The notes under the pieces: generated by a model | Told to the model about the DNA's origin: nothing | Seen by the model: the letters and a program-made list of their open reading frames with translations, nothing else | Databases searched by the model: none | Position numbers and translations under genes: made by a program | Shown here: positions 31,175 through 52,023 of the stretch, piece by piece | Numbering within the stretch: position 1 is the stretch's first letter | Layout of the letters: every line of letters begins with the position of its first letter | From: Micromonospora pattaloongensis | GTDB taxonomy: Bacteria; Actinomycetota; Actinomycetes; Mycobacteriales; Micromonosporaceae | Assembly: GCF_900107255.1 (NCBI RefSeq) | Contig: NZ_FNPH01000003.1 | Coordinates: forward strand, 558,001 to 622,000 | Length of the DNA stretch: 64,000 nt | Direction: 5' to 3'

Positions 31175-32194
31175 ATGACGGCGCCGACGGCGACGATCAG
31201 CGGCCTGCGCAAGGCCGCGATGCTCATGGTGCAGATGGGCAAGGAGGACTCGGTACGGCTGATGGCCCACCTCCGGGAGAACGAGGTGGAGGAGCTGTCC
31301 GCCGAGATCGCCCGGCTGGGCGCGTTGGACGTCGGCCTCGCGGACCAGGTCCTGGAGGAGTTCCACACCCTCGCCACCACCCACCGCTACGTCGGCCAGG
31401 GCGGCATGGACTACGCGCGCGACCTGCTGGAGGCCTCGATGGGGCCGGAGGCGGCGAAGGCGATCCTGGAGCGGCTCGCCGTCTCCATGACCGACATGCC
31501 GTTCGGGTTCCTCGGCCACGCCGACCCGCGACAGGTCCTCTCGTACGTGCAGCACGAGCACCCGCAGATCATCGCGCTCGTCCTCGCCCACATGCCCGCG
31601 ACGCTCGCCTCCCCGATCCTCTCCGGCCTCGCGCCGGACCTGCAGTCCGACGTCGCGCACCGGATCGCGGTGATGGACCGCACCTCCCCCGAGATCATCC
31701 GGCAGGTCGAGGCGGCGCTGGAGCGCAAGCTCTCCTCGGTGTTGCAGCCCAACGAGCTCTCCACCGTCGGTGGCCTGCAGCCGCTGGTCGACATCATCAA
31801 CCGCGCGGACCGCGGCACCGAACGTCTCATCCTCGAGGGGCTGGAGGGGCGCAGCCCCGAGCTCGCCGAGGAGGTGCGTCGGCGGATGTTCATGTTCGAG
31901 GACATCAAGATGCTCGAGGACCGCGCCGTGCAGCTCGTGCTGCGGCAGGTCGAGATGGCGGACCTCGCGACCGCGCTCAAGGGTGTCGCCGAGGAGGTGC
32001 GCGACAAGGTCGTGCGCAACCTCTCCGAGCGGGCCCGGGAGAACCTCATGGAGGAGATCGAGCTGCTCGGGCCCGTGCGGCTGCGCATGGTCGAGGAGGC
32101 GCAGGCCAAGATCGTCCAGGTGATCCGCTCCCTCGAGCAGTCCGGCCAGATCGAGATCCAGCGGGGCGGTGACGAGGATGAGTTCGTCGCGTGA
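31175..32194 (+). CDS. fliG: Flagellar motor switch protein FliG
   Basis: A 339-residue rotor protein. Three ARM-like domains: N-terminal (SGLRKAAMLMVQMG, FliF contact), middle (HEHPQIIALVLAHM with the EHPQ FliM-contact motif) and C-terminal (FMFEDIKMLEDRAVQLVLRQVEM) with the charged torque helix that meets MotA. It ends in EDEFVA, as is usual. A strong GGGAGGTGA precedes the ATG. Overlaps fliH by up to 26 bp. Confidence 0.97.
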   Translation: MTAPTATISGLRKAAMLMVQMGKEDSVRLMAHLRENEVEELSAEIARLGALDVGLADQVLEEFHTLATTHRYVGQGGMDYARDLLEASMGPEAAKAILERLAVSMTDMPFGFLGHADPRQVLSYVQHEHPQIIALVLAHMPATLASPILSGLAPDLQSDVAHRIAVMDRTSPEIIRQVEAALERKLSSVLQPNELSTVGGLQPLVDIINRADRGTERLILEGLEGRSPELAEEVRRRMFMFEDIKMLEDRAVQLVLRQVEMADLATALKGVAEEVRDKVVRNLSERARENLMEEIELLGPVRLRMVEEAQAKIVQVIRSLEQSGQIEIQRGGDEDEFVA

Positions 32195-46529: not shown

Positions 46530-46600
46530 GGTGGGGCGCCAGGACGGCAGCGCAGAGGGCATGGACAGGCCCGGCATAACTCCCACCTGTGGAAGGTGCC

Positions 46601-48640
46601 GTGAACCCGAGGCGACTGAGCCAGCTCGTGGTGCCGGTCGGCGTAATCATGATCATCGTAATGATGGTCGTGCCGTTGCCGACCCTGCTGCTCGACCTTC
46701 TGATCGCGTTGAACATCACCGGCGCGCTGCTGATCCTGCTCGTGAGCATGTTCGTGCAGCGCCCACTCGACTTCTCGATTCTCCCGGCGCTGCTGCTGGT
46801 CGCCACCCTCTTCCGGCTGGCCCTCAACATCAGCGCCACCCGGCTCGTCCTGCTGGACGGCTTCGCCGGCAACGTCATCGAGGCGTTCGGGCACTTCGTC
46901 GTCGGCGGCTCGCTCGTCGTCGGCATGGTGATCTTCCTGATCCTGATCATCGTGCAGATCGTCGTGGTCACCAAGGGCTCCGAGCGGGTCGCCGAGGTGG
47001 GCGCGCGGTTCACCCTCGACGCCATGCCCGGCAAGCAGATGGCGATCGACGCGGACCTCAACGCGGGCCTGATCGACGAGGCGGAGGCGCGCCGCCGGCG
47101 CGCCGAGGTCGCGGCCGAGGCCGACTTCTACGGCGCGATGGACGGCGCCTCGAAGTTCGTCAAGGGCGACGCGATCGCCGCCATCATCATCACGCTGGTC
47201 AACCTGATCGGCGGCTTCATCATCGGCATGATGCAGCGCGGCATGTCGGCCGGCGAGGCCATCCAGACGTACAGCCTGCTCAGCGTCGGTGACGGCCTCG
47301 TCTCGCAGATCCCCGCGCTGCTGCTGTCGGTCGCGACCGGTCTGATCGTCACCCGGTCCGCCACCGACGGCGACATGGGCAGCAACGTCAGCCAGCAGCT
47401 CGGCCAGCACAAGCGCGCGCTGCAGATCGGCGGCGGCGCGGCCGTGGCGCTCTGCGTCATCCCCGGCCTGCCCAAGCTGCCGTTCCTGCTGGTGGGCGGC
47501 GCCGTGCTGCTGATCGCCCAGCGGCTGCCGAACCGCGAGGCCACCGCCGACGAGCCGACCGAGACCGTGGCCGGGCCCGCCCCGGACTCGACCGAGTCGC
47601 TGATCGGCGAGATGCGCGTCGACCCGCTCGAGTTGGCGCTCTCCCCCGACCTGGTCGACCTGGTCGACCCCACGACCGGGGACCTGCTCGACCGGGTACG
47701 GGCGCTGCGCCGCAAGATGGCGCTCGAACTGGGCATGGTGATGCCCCCGGTGCGCACCCACGACGATCTCGACCTGCCGCTGTCCACGTACGTCATCCGA
47801 ATCAGCGGGGTCGAGGTCGGACGGGGTCAGGCACCGCCGGGCACGGTGCTCGCGATCGGCGAAGGGCTGCAGGCGCTGCCCGGCCGGGCCGGCACCGAGC
47901 CGGTCTTCGGACTCACCGGCAAATGGGTTCCCACCGAGCTGCAGTACCAGGCCGAGTTGACCGGCGCGACGGTCGTGGACCGCGCCTCCGTGATCATCAC
48001 GCACCTGGCCGAGGTGGTCCGGAGCAACGCGAGCCGGCTGCTGGGCCGCGAGGACGTACGGGCGCTGACGGAGATGACCAAGCGGACCCACCCGGTCGTC
48101 GTCGAGGAGCTCACGCCGGCGCTGCTGAGCCTCGGTCAGATCCAGAAGGTGCTGCAGTCCCTGCTCGACGAGGGCGTGCCGATCCGCGACCTGGTCCGCA
48201 TCTTCGAGGCGCTCTCGCTGCGCGCCAAGGTGTCGACGGACGCCGACGGCCTCGTCGAGGCCGCCCGGACCGCCCTCGGCCCGGCGATCGCGGCGCAGCG
48301 CGCCATCGGCGGCGCGCTCCCCGTGATCACGCTCGATCCCCAGCTCGAACAGTCGCTGTTGGAGGCGCTGCGCCCGGCGGAAACCGGGGCGTTCCTCGCG
48401 ATCGACGGCGCCCGCGCCGAGACGATCGTCAGCCAGATCGGCCGCCTCGCCGAGGCGGCCGAACAGGCCGGCACCACCCCGGTGGTGGCCTGCTCACCGC
48501 AGCTACGCGCGCCGCTGAGCCGTCTGCTGCACGCCGGGGCCCGGCGGGTGCCGGTCCTGTCCTACTCGGAGATCTCCGGTTCTGTGTCGCACATCGAGAC
48601 GATGGGAGTGGTGAACGGTGCCTACGCGGGTGCTGCTTGA
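46601..48640 (+). CDS. flhA: Flagellar export gate protein FlhA
   Basis: A 679-residue protein with eight membrane segments in the first 315 residues and a large cytoplasmic domain. The conserved FHIPEP loop reads ERVAEVGARFTLDAMPGKQMAIDADLNAGLI ... DFYGAMDGASKFVKGDAIA. The cytoplasmic part (RVDPLELALSPDLVDL, VRTHDDLDLPLSTY, PVVVEELTPALLSLGQIQKVLQSLL) docks export substrates. The GTG at 46601 with GGAAGG is preferred over a GTG four codons earlier. Overlaps the next gene by 23 bp. Confidence 0.97.
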   Translation: MNPRRLSQLVVPVGVIMIIVMMVVPLPTLLLDLLIALNITGALLILLVSMFVQRPLDFSILPALLLVATLFRLALNISATRLVLLDGFAGNVIEAFGHFVVGGSLVVGMVIFLILIIVQIVVVTKGSERVAEVGARFTLDAMPGKQMAIDADLNAGLIDEAEARRRRAEVAAEADFYGAMDGASKFVKGDAIAAIIITLVNLIGGFIIGMMQRGMSAGEAIQTYSLLSVGDGLVSQIPALLLSVATGLIVTRSATDGDMGSNVSQQLGQHKRALQIGGGAAVALCVIPGLPKLPFLLVGGAVLLIAQRLPNREATADEPTETVAGPAPDSTESLIGEMRVDPLELALSPDLVDLVDPTTGDLLDRVRALRRKMALELGMVMPPVRTHDDLDLPLSTYVIRISGVEVGRGQAPPGTVLAIGEGLQALPGRAGTEPVFGLTGKWVPTELQYQAELTGATVVDRASVIITHLAEVVRSNASRLLGREDVRALTEMTKRTHPVVVEELTPALLSLGQIQKVLQSLLDEGVPIRDLVRIFEALSLRAKVSTDADGLVEAARTALGPAIAAQRAIGGALPVITLDPQLEQSLLEALRPAETGAFLAIDGARAETIVSQIGRLAEAAEQAGTTPVVACSPQLRAPLSRLLHAGARRVPVLSYSEISGSVSHIETMGVVNGAYAGAA

Positions 48641-50138
48641 GGGTCCGGAGATCGAGCCGCTGCTGGCACAGGTCCGCGAGGAGTACGGCGCCGGGGCACG
48701 GATCGTCAACGCCGAGAAGGTCCGGGTCGGTGGCGTCGGGGGCTTCTTCGCCCGGGAGCACTTCGAGCTGTCGGTCGAGGTGCCGGACGGGGTGGCCACC
48801 CCCGCCCCGGCGACGCCGGCCGACGCCGCCGGCGCGGGGCCGATCGCTCCGCGGTCGCTCGATGACCTGCTCAACCTGGCCGAGGCGAAGGAGGAACAGC
48901 AGCCGGCCGTGACGCCGTCCACGATCACGCCCAGCCAGTCCACGCCCGTTCCCGGCCTCGCCACGTCGCCCGCCGGAACGTCGGGGCCGGCGAAGGCACC
49001 CGTCCGCACGCCGGGCGCTCCGTCGAGCGCCGGCGCGAGCGGGTTCACCCCGTTCGTCCCGCCCACGGTCACCGCCACCCGAACCGCGGCGGTCAGGCCG
49101 GCGGCCGACACGCCGGCCCCGCCGGCGGCGACCCCGGCGACGGCGGGCATCCCGCTGACGCGGCCGGTCCCGTCCACCCCGCCCGTGCCGCGCGCCTCGC
49201 TGGTCTCCACGGCCGGTCCGGCGTTCGCCGACGTGATGGCCGACCTGAACTCCGCCAACCTCACCACGGCCGCTTCCCTGGCACTGCGGCCGCAGGCCGC
49301 GCCGGCCGTAGCGACGCCCCCGGTGGCCGCGCCCGCCCCGGCGACGCCCGCCGTGGTCACCTCGTCCGCCGTGACCACGCCCGCCGTGGTCACCTCATCC
49401 GCCGTGACCACGCCCGCCGTGGTCGCCTCGTCCGCGGTGGCCACGCGCCCTCCGGCCGTCGCCCGGCTGGTGGACCTCGGGGTGCCCGAGCCGCTCGCCG
49501 CACGCGTGACCGGCGGCGATCCGTACCAGGAGATCCTCGACGCGCTCGCCGCGCTGCCGGCGCCGCCGCGCGCCCCGAAGCGCGCCGGGGACGTGCTGGT
49601 GATCGCCGGCGAGCTCGCGCACGCCTTGCCGATCGCCCGCGAGGTCGCCCAGGGGCTGCATCTCGACCCCGCGAAGCTCCTGCTCGTCGCCCCCACCACC
49701 GGCGGAACCGGTCTGCACGCATCGCGCCGGATCTCCGGGCCGGCGGAGGCGCACCGACGTGCCCGGACCATGCACCGCGCCGAGGTGCCGCACGTCGTCG
49801 TCGTCGACGCCCCGATCACCAGCTCGGACGACGGCTGGGTGCGCTCGATCTCCGACGCGCTCGGCGCGACCGCGGTCTGGGCGGCCGTCGACGCCACCCG
49901 CAAACTCGCGGATACGGCGCGGCACCTGCAGCTCATGGGCCGGGTGGACGCCACCGCGGTCTACGCCACGGCCGCCTGCTCGGACCCGGCCGCGGTGCTC
50001 GGGCTGAACGTGCCGGTGGCGCTGCTGGAGCGCCGCCCTGCCACGGCTATGGCGTGGGCGACGCTGCTGTGCGAACGCCTGCGCGCCGCCGCGGGACAGC
50101 TCACGAACCGGTTGGAGGTTAGCTATGTCACTCATTAG
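48618..50138 (+). CDS. FlhF-like protein lacking GTPase motifs
   Basis: A 506-residue protein in the flhF slot after flhA. The N-terminal 55 residues (GPEIEPLLAQVREEYGAGARIVNAEKV) look like the FlhF N-terminal domain. Residues about 55-280 are Pro/Ala/Thr/Val-rich with an 11-residue tandem repeat. The last 190 residues have the strand-helix rhythm of an SRP-type GTPase (VLVIAGELAHALPIAREVAQGL, KLLLVAPTTGG, VPHVVVVDAP), but GxxGxGKTT is replaced by GELAHAL, DTAGR by DAPIT, and no TKxD is seen. Nucleotide binding is unlikely. FlhF sets flagellar number and place; a scaffold role is inferred. Confidence 0.72.
   Translation: MPTRVLLEGPEIEPLLAQVREEYGAGARIVNAEKVRVGGVGGFFAREHFELSVEVPDGVATPAPATPADAAGAGPIAPRSLDDLLNLAEAKEEQQPAVTPSTITPSQSTPVPGLATSPAGTSGPAKAPVRTPGAPSSAGASGFTPFVPPTVTATRTAAVRPAADTPAPPAATPATAGIPLTRPVPSTPPVPRASLVSTAGPAFADVMADLNSANLTTAASLALRPQAAPAVATPPVAAPAPATPAVVTSSAVTTPAVVTSSAVTTPAVVASSAVATRPPAVARLVDLGVPEPLAARVTGGDPYQEILDALAALPAPPRAPKRAGDVLVIAGELAHALPIAREVAQGLHLDPAKLLLVAPTTGGTGLHASRRISGPAEAHRRARTMHRAEVPHVVVVDAPITSSDDGWVRSISDALGATAVWAAVDATRKLADTARHLQLMGRVDATAVYATAACSDPAAVLGLNVPVALLERRPATAMAWATLLCERLRAAAGQLTNRLEVSYVTH
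49341..49439 (+). repeat. Tandem 33-bp repeat in the FlhF-like gene
   Basis: Three in-frame 33-bp units coding (A/T)TPAVV(T/A)SSAV, nearly identical at DNA level (the second differs from the first by very few bases, the third by a few more). They sit in the disordered linker. Confidence 0.88.
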
Positions 50139-50385
50139 GCCCGCCGCGCTCGGACTGGCCACGCTGATGGCCGGTCCGGCCCTGTGGCGCGCGTTCGTCA
50201 CCCAGACCCTGGACGTGCAGAGCGCGCTGACGCGCTTTCTGATCGCCGTGCCGATCGCGGCCATCATGCTCGCCGCGCTGCGCATCATCACCGAGAGCTA
50301 CCGTCGACGCCCGCGCCTCTTCGCCGAACTACAAGCCCAAACCCAGCCCACCCCCACCCCCACCGACCCCACACCCACCCCCTGA
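50125..50385 (+). CDS. Small membrane protein of unknown function
   Basis: An 86-residue protein starting inside the end of the FlhF-like gene (14-bp overlap). Two hydrophobic stretches, about 7-20 and 38-54 (FLIAVPIAAIMLAALRII), and a Thr-Pro tail. Usually an flhG/minD-like gene follows flhF; this is not one. Overlap suggests it is translated with the FlhF-like protein and may anchor it to the membrane (inference). Followed by palindrome copy B. Confidence 0.65.
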   Translation: MSLIRPAALGLATLMAGPALWRAFVTQTLDVQSALTRFLIAVPIAAIMLAALRIITESYRRRPRLFAELQAQTQPTPTPTDPTPTP

Positions 50386-50476: not shown

Positions 50477-51934
50477 TCAGGCGGCGAAGGAGACGCCGGA
50501 GCGGCCGCGCTTGGCGGTGTACATGGCGGCGTCGGCGGACCGGATCACCTCGTCCGGGCCGCGCAGCGGGGCCGACGCCGCGTCGACCAGCGTGACGCCG
50601 ATGCTCGGGGTGACCCGCACGGTGCGACCGGCGACCACGACGGGTTCGCCGATCGCGGCGATCAATCGCCGACCCAGCTCCTCGGCGTTCCAGCGATCCC
50701 GCACCTGCTCGGCGACCACCACGAACTCGTCGCCACCGAGCCGGGCGGCGACGTCGTGCCGGCGCACCGACGACCAGAGCCGCTCGGCGGTCACCCGCAG
50801 CACCTCGTCGCCGGCCTCGTGCCCGAGATCGTCGTTGATCCGCTTGAAGCCGTCGAGATCGAGGAAGAGGACCGCGACCAGCCCGGCCCCCGCCGCGCAG
50901 CGGTTGAGCACCTGGGCCAGGTGATCCAGGAGGAAGCGCCGGTTGGGCAGGCCGGTGAGCGCATCGTGCAACGCCAGCTTCTCCTCGCGCCGATGCTCCG
51001 TGACGTCCCGGTTGATCGCGATCGCGCCCGAGACGTGACCGAACTGGTCGGTCATCGCGGTCATCGAGCAGAGCAGCTGGACCTCGTCGCCGTCCGCGCG
51101 CCGCTGCCGCAGCTCGCCGTTCCACACCCCGGTCCGGCCGAGCTCCGCGAGCAGGTCGGCGCGGCTGACCGCCTCCCCCGTCGCCGTTGAGATGAACTGG
51201 GTGGCGAGCAGCGCCTGCGCGTCGCAGCCGAGCGCCTCGGCCGCCGAGTAGAGGTAGACGCGTTCCGCGGCGCTGTTCCAGTTGACCACCCGGTCCTCGG
51301 CGTCCCACGCGATGATCACGTCCGAAACCTGGTCCACCAGCTCCGCCTGCCGGCGCATGTCGTCGACCGCGGCGGTGGAGAATGCCAGCCGATCGATCGC
51401 CACCAGCGTGGCGGCGGCGGTGTCGGCGACCGCGTGCAGGAACGCCACGTCGCCGTCGGCGTACGTCGGTTTCCCCGCCTCGCGCGTCGCGACCAGCACC
51501 CCGCGTACCGAGCCGTCACCGCCGAGCGGGACGACCGCCACGGCGCCGAGGCCGTCGACCGCGTTCCACGGCGCGGCCCCGAGTTCCGGACCGTCGAGGT
51601 GCGCGGCCACCTCCGCCGGCCCCAGGATCGCGTCGATTCCCGCCTCCAGCACCGCGTAGAGCAGGTCGGCGCCCCAGGAGTCCTCGATCAGGTCGCCGCC
51701 GTGCCGCAGCAGCCGCTCGGCCCGCGGGTCGCGGTGCGCCGCGCCGGCCCGGGCAAGCCCGGTCCGCTCCCCCGGCACCGTCAGCCAGACGCTGCAGCCG
51801 TCACCGAGGAGCTCGGTCACCGCGCGGGCCGCGGCCTCCGACACCTGCCGCTGGTCCGGCGCCACACCCGTCATGGTGCGGGCGATGTCCACGACGGCCT
51901 GCAGCCGCCGCGCCTCCACCGACCTCGCCGTCAT
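50477..51934 (-). CDS. GAF-PAS-GGDEF diguanylate cyclase
   Basis: A 485-residue soluble protein. A GAF domain is at about 10-175, PAS at about 190-310 (VIIAWDAEDRVVNWNSAAERVYLYSAAE) and GGDEF at about 325-485 with LTGLPNRRFLLDHL, active motif ARLGGDEFVVV and an RRHD inhibitory I-site six residues before it, so product-inhibited c-di-GMP synthesis is expected. The ATG at 51934 has GGAGGA upstream; a GTG at 52003 is a less likely start. A FliA-type promoter at 52024-52050 places it in the flagellar regulon. Confidence 0.92.
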   Translation of the reverse strand: MTARSVEARRLQAVVDIARTMTGVAPDQRQVSEAAARAVTELLGDGCSVWLTVPGERTGLARAGAAHRDPRAERLLRHGGDLIEDSWGADLLYAVLEAGIDAILGPAEVAAHLDGPELGAAPWNAVDGLGAVAVVPLGGDGSVRGVLVATREAGKPTYADGDVAFLHAVADTAAATLVAIDRLAFSTAAVDDMRRQAELVDQVSDVIIAWDAEDRVVNWNSAAERVYLYSAAEALGCDAQALLATQFISTATGEAVSRADLLAELGRTGVWNGELRQRRADGDEVQLLCSMTAMTDQFGHVSGAIAINRDVTEHRREEKLALHDALTGLPNRRFLLDHLAQVLNRCAAGAGLVAVLFLDLDGFKRINDDLGHEAGDEVLRVTAERLWSSVRRHDVAARLGGDEFVVVAEQVRDRWNAEELGRRLIAAIGEPVVVAGRTVRVTPSIGVTLVDAASAPLRGPDEVIRSADAAMYTAKRGRSGVSFAA

Positions 51935-52023
51935 CCCGTCCTCCATCAGCGGCGACCCGGCACCGGACCGGCCGCTGCCGGACAGCCGTGAACACGCCGT
52001 CACCCATAGGTTCGCAACGTCAT

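Follow-up and report, generated by a model that had tools for sequence, protein, structure and literature searches.

Organization of the flhA neighbourhood

The DNA analysed here, referred to as the window, is a stretch of 64,000 nucleotides from Micromonospora pattaloongensis that includes a flagellar gene cluster. An intact open reading frame (ORF) of 506 amino acids with a GTG start, here termed pseudo-flhF, is present in this cluster at 48618-50138 on the forward strand. It lies directly after flhA (46589-48640, forward strand; Pfam FHIPEP, E 4e-251) and overlaps the 3′ end of that gene, so that the flhA-flhF gene order typical of FlhF is kept. In most Actinomycetia loci, the pseudo-flhF start is found 22 nt ahead of the flhA stop. 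The full-length model consists of an FID-like N-terminal domain (residues 1-57; 48618-48788), a long, Pro/Ala-rich and mostly disordered linker of low confidence (residues 58-274; 48789-49439; pLDDT mostly below 50) and an NG-like domain (residues 275-499; 49440-50114). The last has the fold of the SRP GTPases without their nucleotide motifs. The same cluster encodes FliF and FliG, the latter (31175-32191, forward strand; Pfam FliG_N/M/C) being the proposed partner of the FID.

The stop codon of pseudo-flhF is overlapped by the gene for a small conserved membrane protein of 86 amino acids (50125-50385, forward strand), as the preliminary description of this DNA had stated. Two hydrophobic segments can be recognised in it by eye, and no Pfam or NCBIfam family scores above cut-off. 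Behind flhA or pseudo-flhF, 37 related ORFs were found in flagellated Actinomycetia loci, some of these records overlapping. The small protein is retained beside flhA at six loci that have lost the FlhF-like gene (L017, L154, L156, L160, L167 and L175); the two are, therefore, not strictly tied. It is a candidate, and only that, for the docking of the NG-like domain. Past the end of the flagellar cluster and convergent with it, a PAS-GGDEF diguanylate cyclase gene is encoded on the reverse strand (50477-52003).

The N-terminal domain and the linker

A single-sequence search with the 506-residue protein gave no Pfam match. The NCBIfam model for FlhF, TIGR03499, matches residues 8-94 only (E 1.2e-5), and its 25.5 bits do not exceed the equivalog cut-off of 174.15 bits. 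When a profile of the FID was built from relatives and compared with canonical FlhF N-termini, hhalign gave an E-value of 2.9e-15 over the first ~60 residues. A profile from the actinobacterial rows alone reached the solved FID 9en1 at E 0.024, ranked behind one unrelated chain. In the full-length model, the domain is compact, with three strands and one helix (strands 3-9, 28-37 and 46-55; helix 12-23), and it contains a GGxxGFF motif. The crystal structure of the Shewanella FlhF FID is reported to have the same make-up, three antiparallel strands and one helix, and FliG binding requires the N-terminal 60 residues of that protein, which also suffice for it (PMC11236974). Thus, an FID of the FliG-interaction type is present by sequence and model, and binding of pseudo-FlhF to FliG is predicted.

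In the linker, which is the fastest-evolving part in most of the pairs tested, helices are modelled at residues 81-93 and 201-221. In four Geodermatophilaceae (L016, L018, L019 and L027), pseudo-FlhF reaches ~800-1300 amino acids, with very long linkers, and some of these proteins carry Ala/Glu/Arg-rich repeats of the coiled-coil type.

The NG-like domain and its lost nucleotide motifs

An FlhF-like NG fold had been proposed for the C-terminal half, with structure prediction as the means to check it. No unrelated fold emerged. An AlphaFold2 model of the domain from ten sequences (pLDDT 91.4, pTM 0.86) has the NG fold of the SRP GTPases, and all 50 of the listed PDB matches are SRP-type GTPases, the best target-normalised TM-score among them being 0.60 for FlhF (2px0). 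Similarly, the NG-like profile matches FlhF NG domains with an E-value of 3.5e-7 over ~208 columns, which becomes 1.4e-8 with four further relatives. Five column-shuffled control profiles gave E-values of 0.12-0.89, and a ParA/FlhG profile used as control gave no match. Searched by sequence with the NG-like profile, the PDB yielded no SRP GTPase; it is solely fold comparison and profile-profile comparison that link this domain to the family. Insertion of an unrelated gene into the flhA-flhF slot is ruled out by the homology of both the FID and the NG-like domain.

The nucleotide motifs, located by motif column alignment on the forward strand, are altered exactly as first described. The G1 (P-loop) position reads GELAHAL (residues 331-337; 49608-49628), where the first Gly alone is retained, the loop is two residues shorter, and neither Lys nor Ser/Thr is present. 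The G3 (DTAGR) position reads DAPIT (residues 397-401; 49806-49820). At the G4 (TKxDE) position, TAVYATAACSDP (49953-49988) holds no TKxD, which is replaced by VYATAACSDP. Aligned against canonical FlhF, the three columns read IAGELA--HAL, VVVVDAP and TAVYATAAC. With these residues gone, the protein is predicted not to bind GTP. A T-x-K-x-x-D pattern was considered as an inheritance from FlhF, as canonical FlhF and many Actinomycetia share it. It is missing from the P-loop-keeping intermediates and is, therefore, not taken as proof.

The domain also has invariant residues specific to its family, among them W421, K429, P457 and P466, the invariance of W421 and K429 being judged on 17 sequences. 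In actinobacterial alignments, a signature AVDATRKLAD (49884-49913, forward strand) is recognised, an invariant Trp preceding it and its Lys being invariant as well. The gain of such residues in the C-terminal half might mean that the pocket was repurposed for another ligand, e.g., cyclic di-GMP, by which flagellar assembly would be signalled. The GGDEF/PAS cyclase gene just past the cluster is in line with this, as is the report by Zhu et al. (2023; PMC10746217) of a surge in c-di-GMP enzymes among flagellated Actinobacteria, foremost in those that form zoospores. However, no recognised c-di-GMP motif is found among the new invariant residues, and a repurposed pocket is considered quite unlikely.

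FlhG and other SRP GTPases in the genome

FlhG, the partner and GTPase activator of FlhF, marked by DQAxxLR, was not found in the M. pattaloongensis genome, in keeping with the preliminary description. The best score of a whole-genome FlhG profile search was 71.5 bits, a ParA/MinD-like background, against 365-441 bits in four FlhG-bearing controls. In the 31 genomes other than these controls, M. pattaloongensis and all eleven of state B (see below) among them, the score was at most 98 bits. Nor was another, canonical FlhF found in the genome; the only two full SRP54 matches are presumably Ffh and FtsY. The 506-residue protein gave no SRP54 match and lacks a GTPase domain and motifs of the Ffh/FtsY type. 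A search for FipA (DUF2802) returned no match, the controls being without one as well, and a plasmid search gave no match. Homology to FlhF, the NG fold, the loss of the G motifs and the absence of FlhG are established computationally.

Distribution of the loss

A survey of orthologues had been suggested, and it was anchored on FlhA: public genomes were scanned, and the DNA behind flhA was read. FlhA loci were sampled from Pseudosporangium, Dactylosporangium, Modestobacter, Blastococcus, Klenkia, Geodermatophilus, Cellulomonas, Arthrobacter, Naasia, Occultella, Cryobacterium and several MAGs. With few exceptions, the gene that follows flhA at these loci encodes pseudo-FlhF, again without a P-loop, and the losses extend over the greater part of a large flagellated clade within the Actinobacteria. 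No FlhF-like ORF was found behind flhA in Nocardioides (L017), Microbacterium sp. MYb62 (L022), Aeromicrobium (L026) and family f7. A small-genome lineage with FlhA, family f12 (L195 (G047), L212 and L231), likewise shows none in the available DNA behind flhA. As some flagellated lineages live without it, the gene is not essential for flagella.

In a class survey of 297 genomes, FlhA was present in 37, and a clear match to the NG-like profile was seen in 21, all within those 37. Two marginal matches in genomes lacking FlhA were taken as chance. Of the remaining genomes with FlhA, some carry an FID protein that is shorter or more diverged (L146, L149 and L172), and others have none.

The preliminary description suggested that the changed protein is part of a redesigned way of placing flagella on spores. 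Micromonosporaceae are a family with motile spores, and the nearest FlhA relatives, Pseudosporangium and Dactylosporangium, belong to it. Nevertheless, several genera that carry pseudo-FlhF form no zoospores, and the trait is thus not bound to spores. The loss is equally seen in Arthrobacter, Cryobacterium, Cellulomonas, Naasia, Occultella, Geodermatophilaceae and many further genomes, all within one old clade, and a flagellar system redesigned specifically for spores is thus very improbable.

A graded series from FlhF to pseudo-FlhF

A phylum survey of 296 genomes found FlhA in 52, among which three states could be recognised. In state A (13 genomes; f25, f13 and f11), FlhF carries G1, G3 and G4 and is directly followed by FlhG with DQAxxLR. 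In state B (11 genomes; f21, f59, f28, f22, f42 and f46), the P-loop is retained and no FlhG lies behind the gene. G3 is here mostly altered (DTPG, DTPP, DTTS, DLPA or DAPA), G078 alone still having DTAGR, and G4 ranges from TKLDET to SKxDE, THxDET or none. State C (22 genomes, a few of them read only in part at contig ends) includes M. pattaloongensis and has an FID protein without P-loop, G3 and G4. Within it, the P-loop of Actinomycetia and f31/f61 lacks two residues (GELA--HAL). A sister group (f16, f35, f39, f41 and f47) keeps the full loop length without Lys and Ser/Thr (e.g., GPRARGLAR). The C-terminal half of these five families and of f29 can no longer be recognised as NG (hhalign E 0.07), and their identity as FlhF therefore rests on the FID and on position.

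In the FlhA tree, which was rooted with Firmicutes, every row without a P-loop falls in one clade of 53 (SH-aLRT 100), which otherwise holds only rows without an FlhF gene. This crown clade sits within the state-B rows, and these in turn within the deep lineages of state A. This one clade and the spread across many genera make the loss an old actinobacterial trait and not a zoospore redesign. The simplest reading is that FlhG was lost first, G3/G4 next and the P-loop last, an order that is not proven, as the tree is a quick one and the branches ordering A, B and C have a support of 89-93. Since the P-loop has two shapes, one loss of it cannot be told from two.

Selective constraint

Nei-Gojobori dN/dS ratios were calculated for twelve congeneric or near pairs; owing to the high G+C content, they are rough. 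The ratios of the FID and the NG-like domain are mostly below that of the linker. For L128/L129, they are 0.07 and 0.09 against 0.25 for the linker, and for L028/L048, 0.14 and 0.20 against 0.24. In most congeneric pairs, purifying selection is thus stronger on the two domains than on the linker between them.

It could be argued that the loss of FlhG and of the GTPase cycle made the protein dispensable, and that a remnant is now slowly decaying ahead of gene loss. The loci in Nocardioides, Aeromicrobium, Microbacterium sp. MYb62 and f7 that already lack the gene would fit, as would lengths as unequal as 249 to 1297 amino acids and the NG-like part of L134/L136, which is unconstrained with a dN/dS near 1. 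However, the overlapping ORFs are intact in nearly the whole clade, both domains have dN/dS values of 0.07-0.2 in several pairs, below the linker, and new invariant residues such as W421 and K429 have appeared in 17 sequences. The fold is, moreover, compact and confidently modelled. Decay is, therefore, an unlikely account.

A possible role in flagellar assembly

It is proposed, with a probability of about 0.7, that pseudo-flhF (48618-50138) descends directly from flhF and that its product has become a pseudo-GTPase, acting as a nucleotide-independent tether of FliG/FliF outside any GTP/FlhG cycle. As far as sequence can tell, the protein is FlhF by descent and, by defining biochemistry, not an FlhF GTPase. 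In Shewanella, the FID of FlhF binds FliG, and its NG domain binds the polar landmark HubP; FlhG then stimulates the FlhF GTPase, and assembly of the C-ring proceeds (PMC11236974). A role of pseudo-FlhF in flagellar placement is suggested by analogy. As the FID and the NG fold are kept while the nucleotide site and FlhG are missing, a permanent adaptor for FliG/FliF is the simplest role. The FID would keep hold of FliG and, through it, of FliF, and the NG-like domain would serve as a fixed docking surface for the membrane or a polar site. Without GTP-driven dimerisation and resetting by FlhG, such an adaptor would be permanent. It may help the MS/C-ring to start and perhaps determine its location, and it would not count flagella through a GTP cycle.

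This would not simply be the known mechanism, because the FlhF-FliG interaction of P. aeruginosa is regulated by GTP binding, according to a study on that organism (PMC12713375). The same study reports that the B and N domains of FlhF are needed for assembly and that the GTPase domain maintains polar localisation. Historically, the loss of FlhG may have relaxed selection on hydrolysis, with erosion of G3/G4; the P-loop may then have been lost, and the gene finally dropped in some lineages. On balance, it appears that most flagellated Actinobacteria of the later classes keep FlhF as a nucleotide-free pseudo-GTPase scaffold, the recruitment of FliG having been uncoupled from the GTP/FlhG cycle through these ordered losses.

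The phylogenomic study of Zhu et al. (2023; PMC10746217) described the later, non-FlgFG actinobacterial classes as being without FlhF. That absence is corrected here, as an eroded FlhF is present in most of the members sampled. In a 2025 review on the diversification of FlhF/FlhG, the word stem ‘actino’ is missing from the main text (PMC12826062). No description of a GTPase-dead FlhF family, or of FlhF paired with ‘pseudoGTPase’, was found in a literature search that covered few subscription papers. At this one gene position, the nucleotide machinery has been removed stepwise, which bears on the question of which part of FlhF's job requires GTP. Since the end likely to bind FliG and the fold are kept, the series offers natural test proteins in which each motif is either present or absent. 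Pseudo-FlhF is also a candidate for starting flagella in zoospores and in other flagellated actinobacteria that lack an FlhF GTPase or FlhG.

Comparison with known systems

Pseudo-FlhF resembles the FlhF of Bacillus (2px0) and Shewanella (8r9r; FID 9en1) in the position of its gene after flhA, the FID-linker-NG architecture, the homology of the FID and the NG fold. Unlike them, it has no P-loop, DTAGR, TKxD or FlhG; its linker is much longer, and its TIGR03499 score is far under the cut-off. With Ffh and FtsY it shares the NG fold; they are, however, encoded by separate genes of the same genome, and pseudo-FlhF has an FID, a location in the flagellar cluster and no G motifs. The sister P-loop FlhF proteins without FlhG (L205, L208, L217-L220, L222, L225, L228, L229 and L233) agree with it in position, FID, NG domain (profile E 2.9e-6 to 2.4e-7) and the lack of FlhG, but they keep GxxGxGK[ST], with G3 and G4 altered in most.

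BcsE, which is involved in cellulose secretion, carries degenerate domains with a c-di-GMP role. It belongs to a different pathway and may be a precedent for the retention of a degenerate fold of the nucleotide type as a scaffold.
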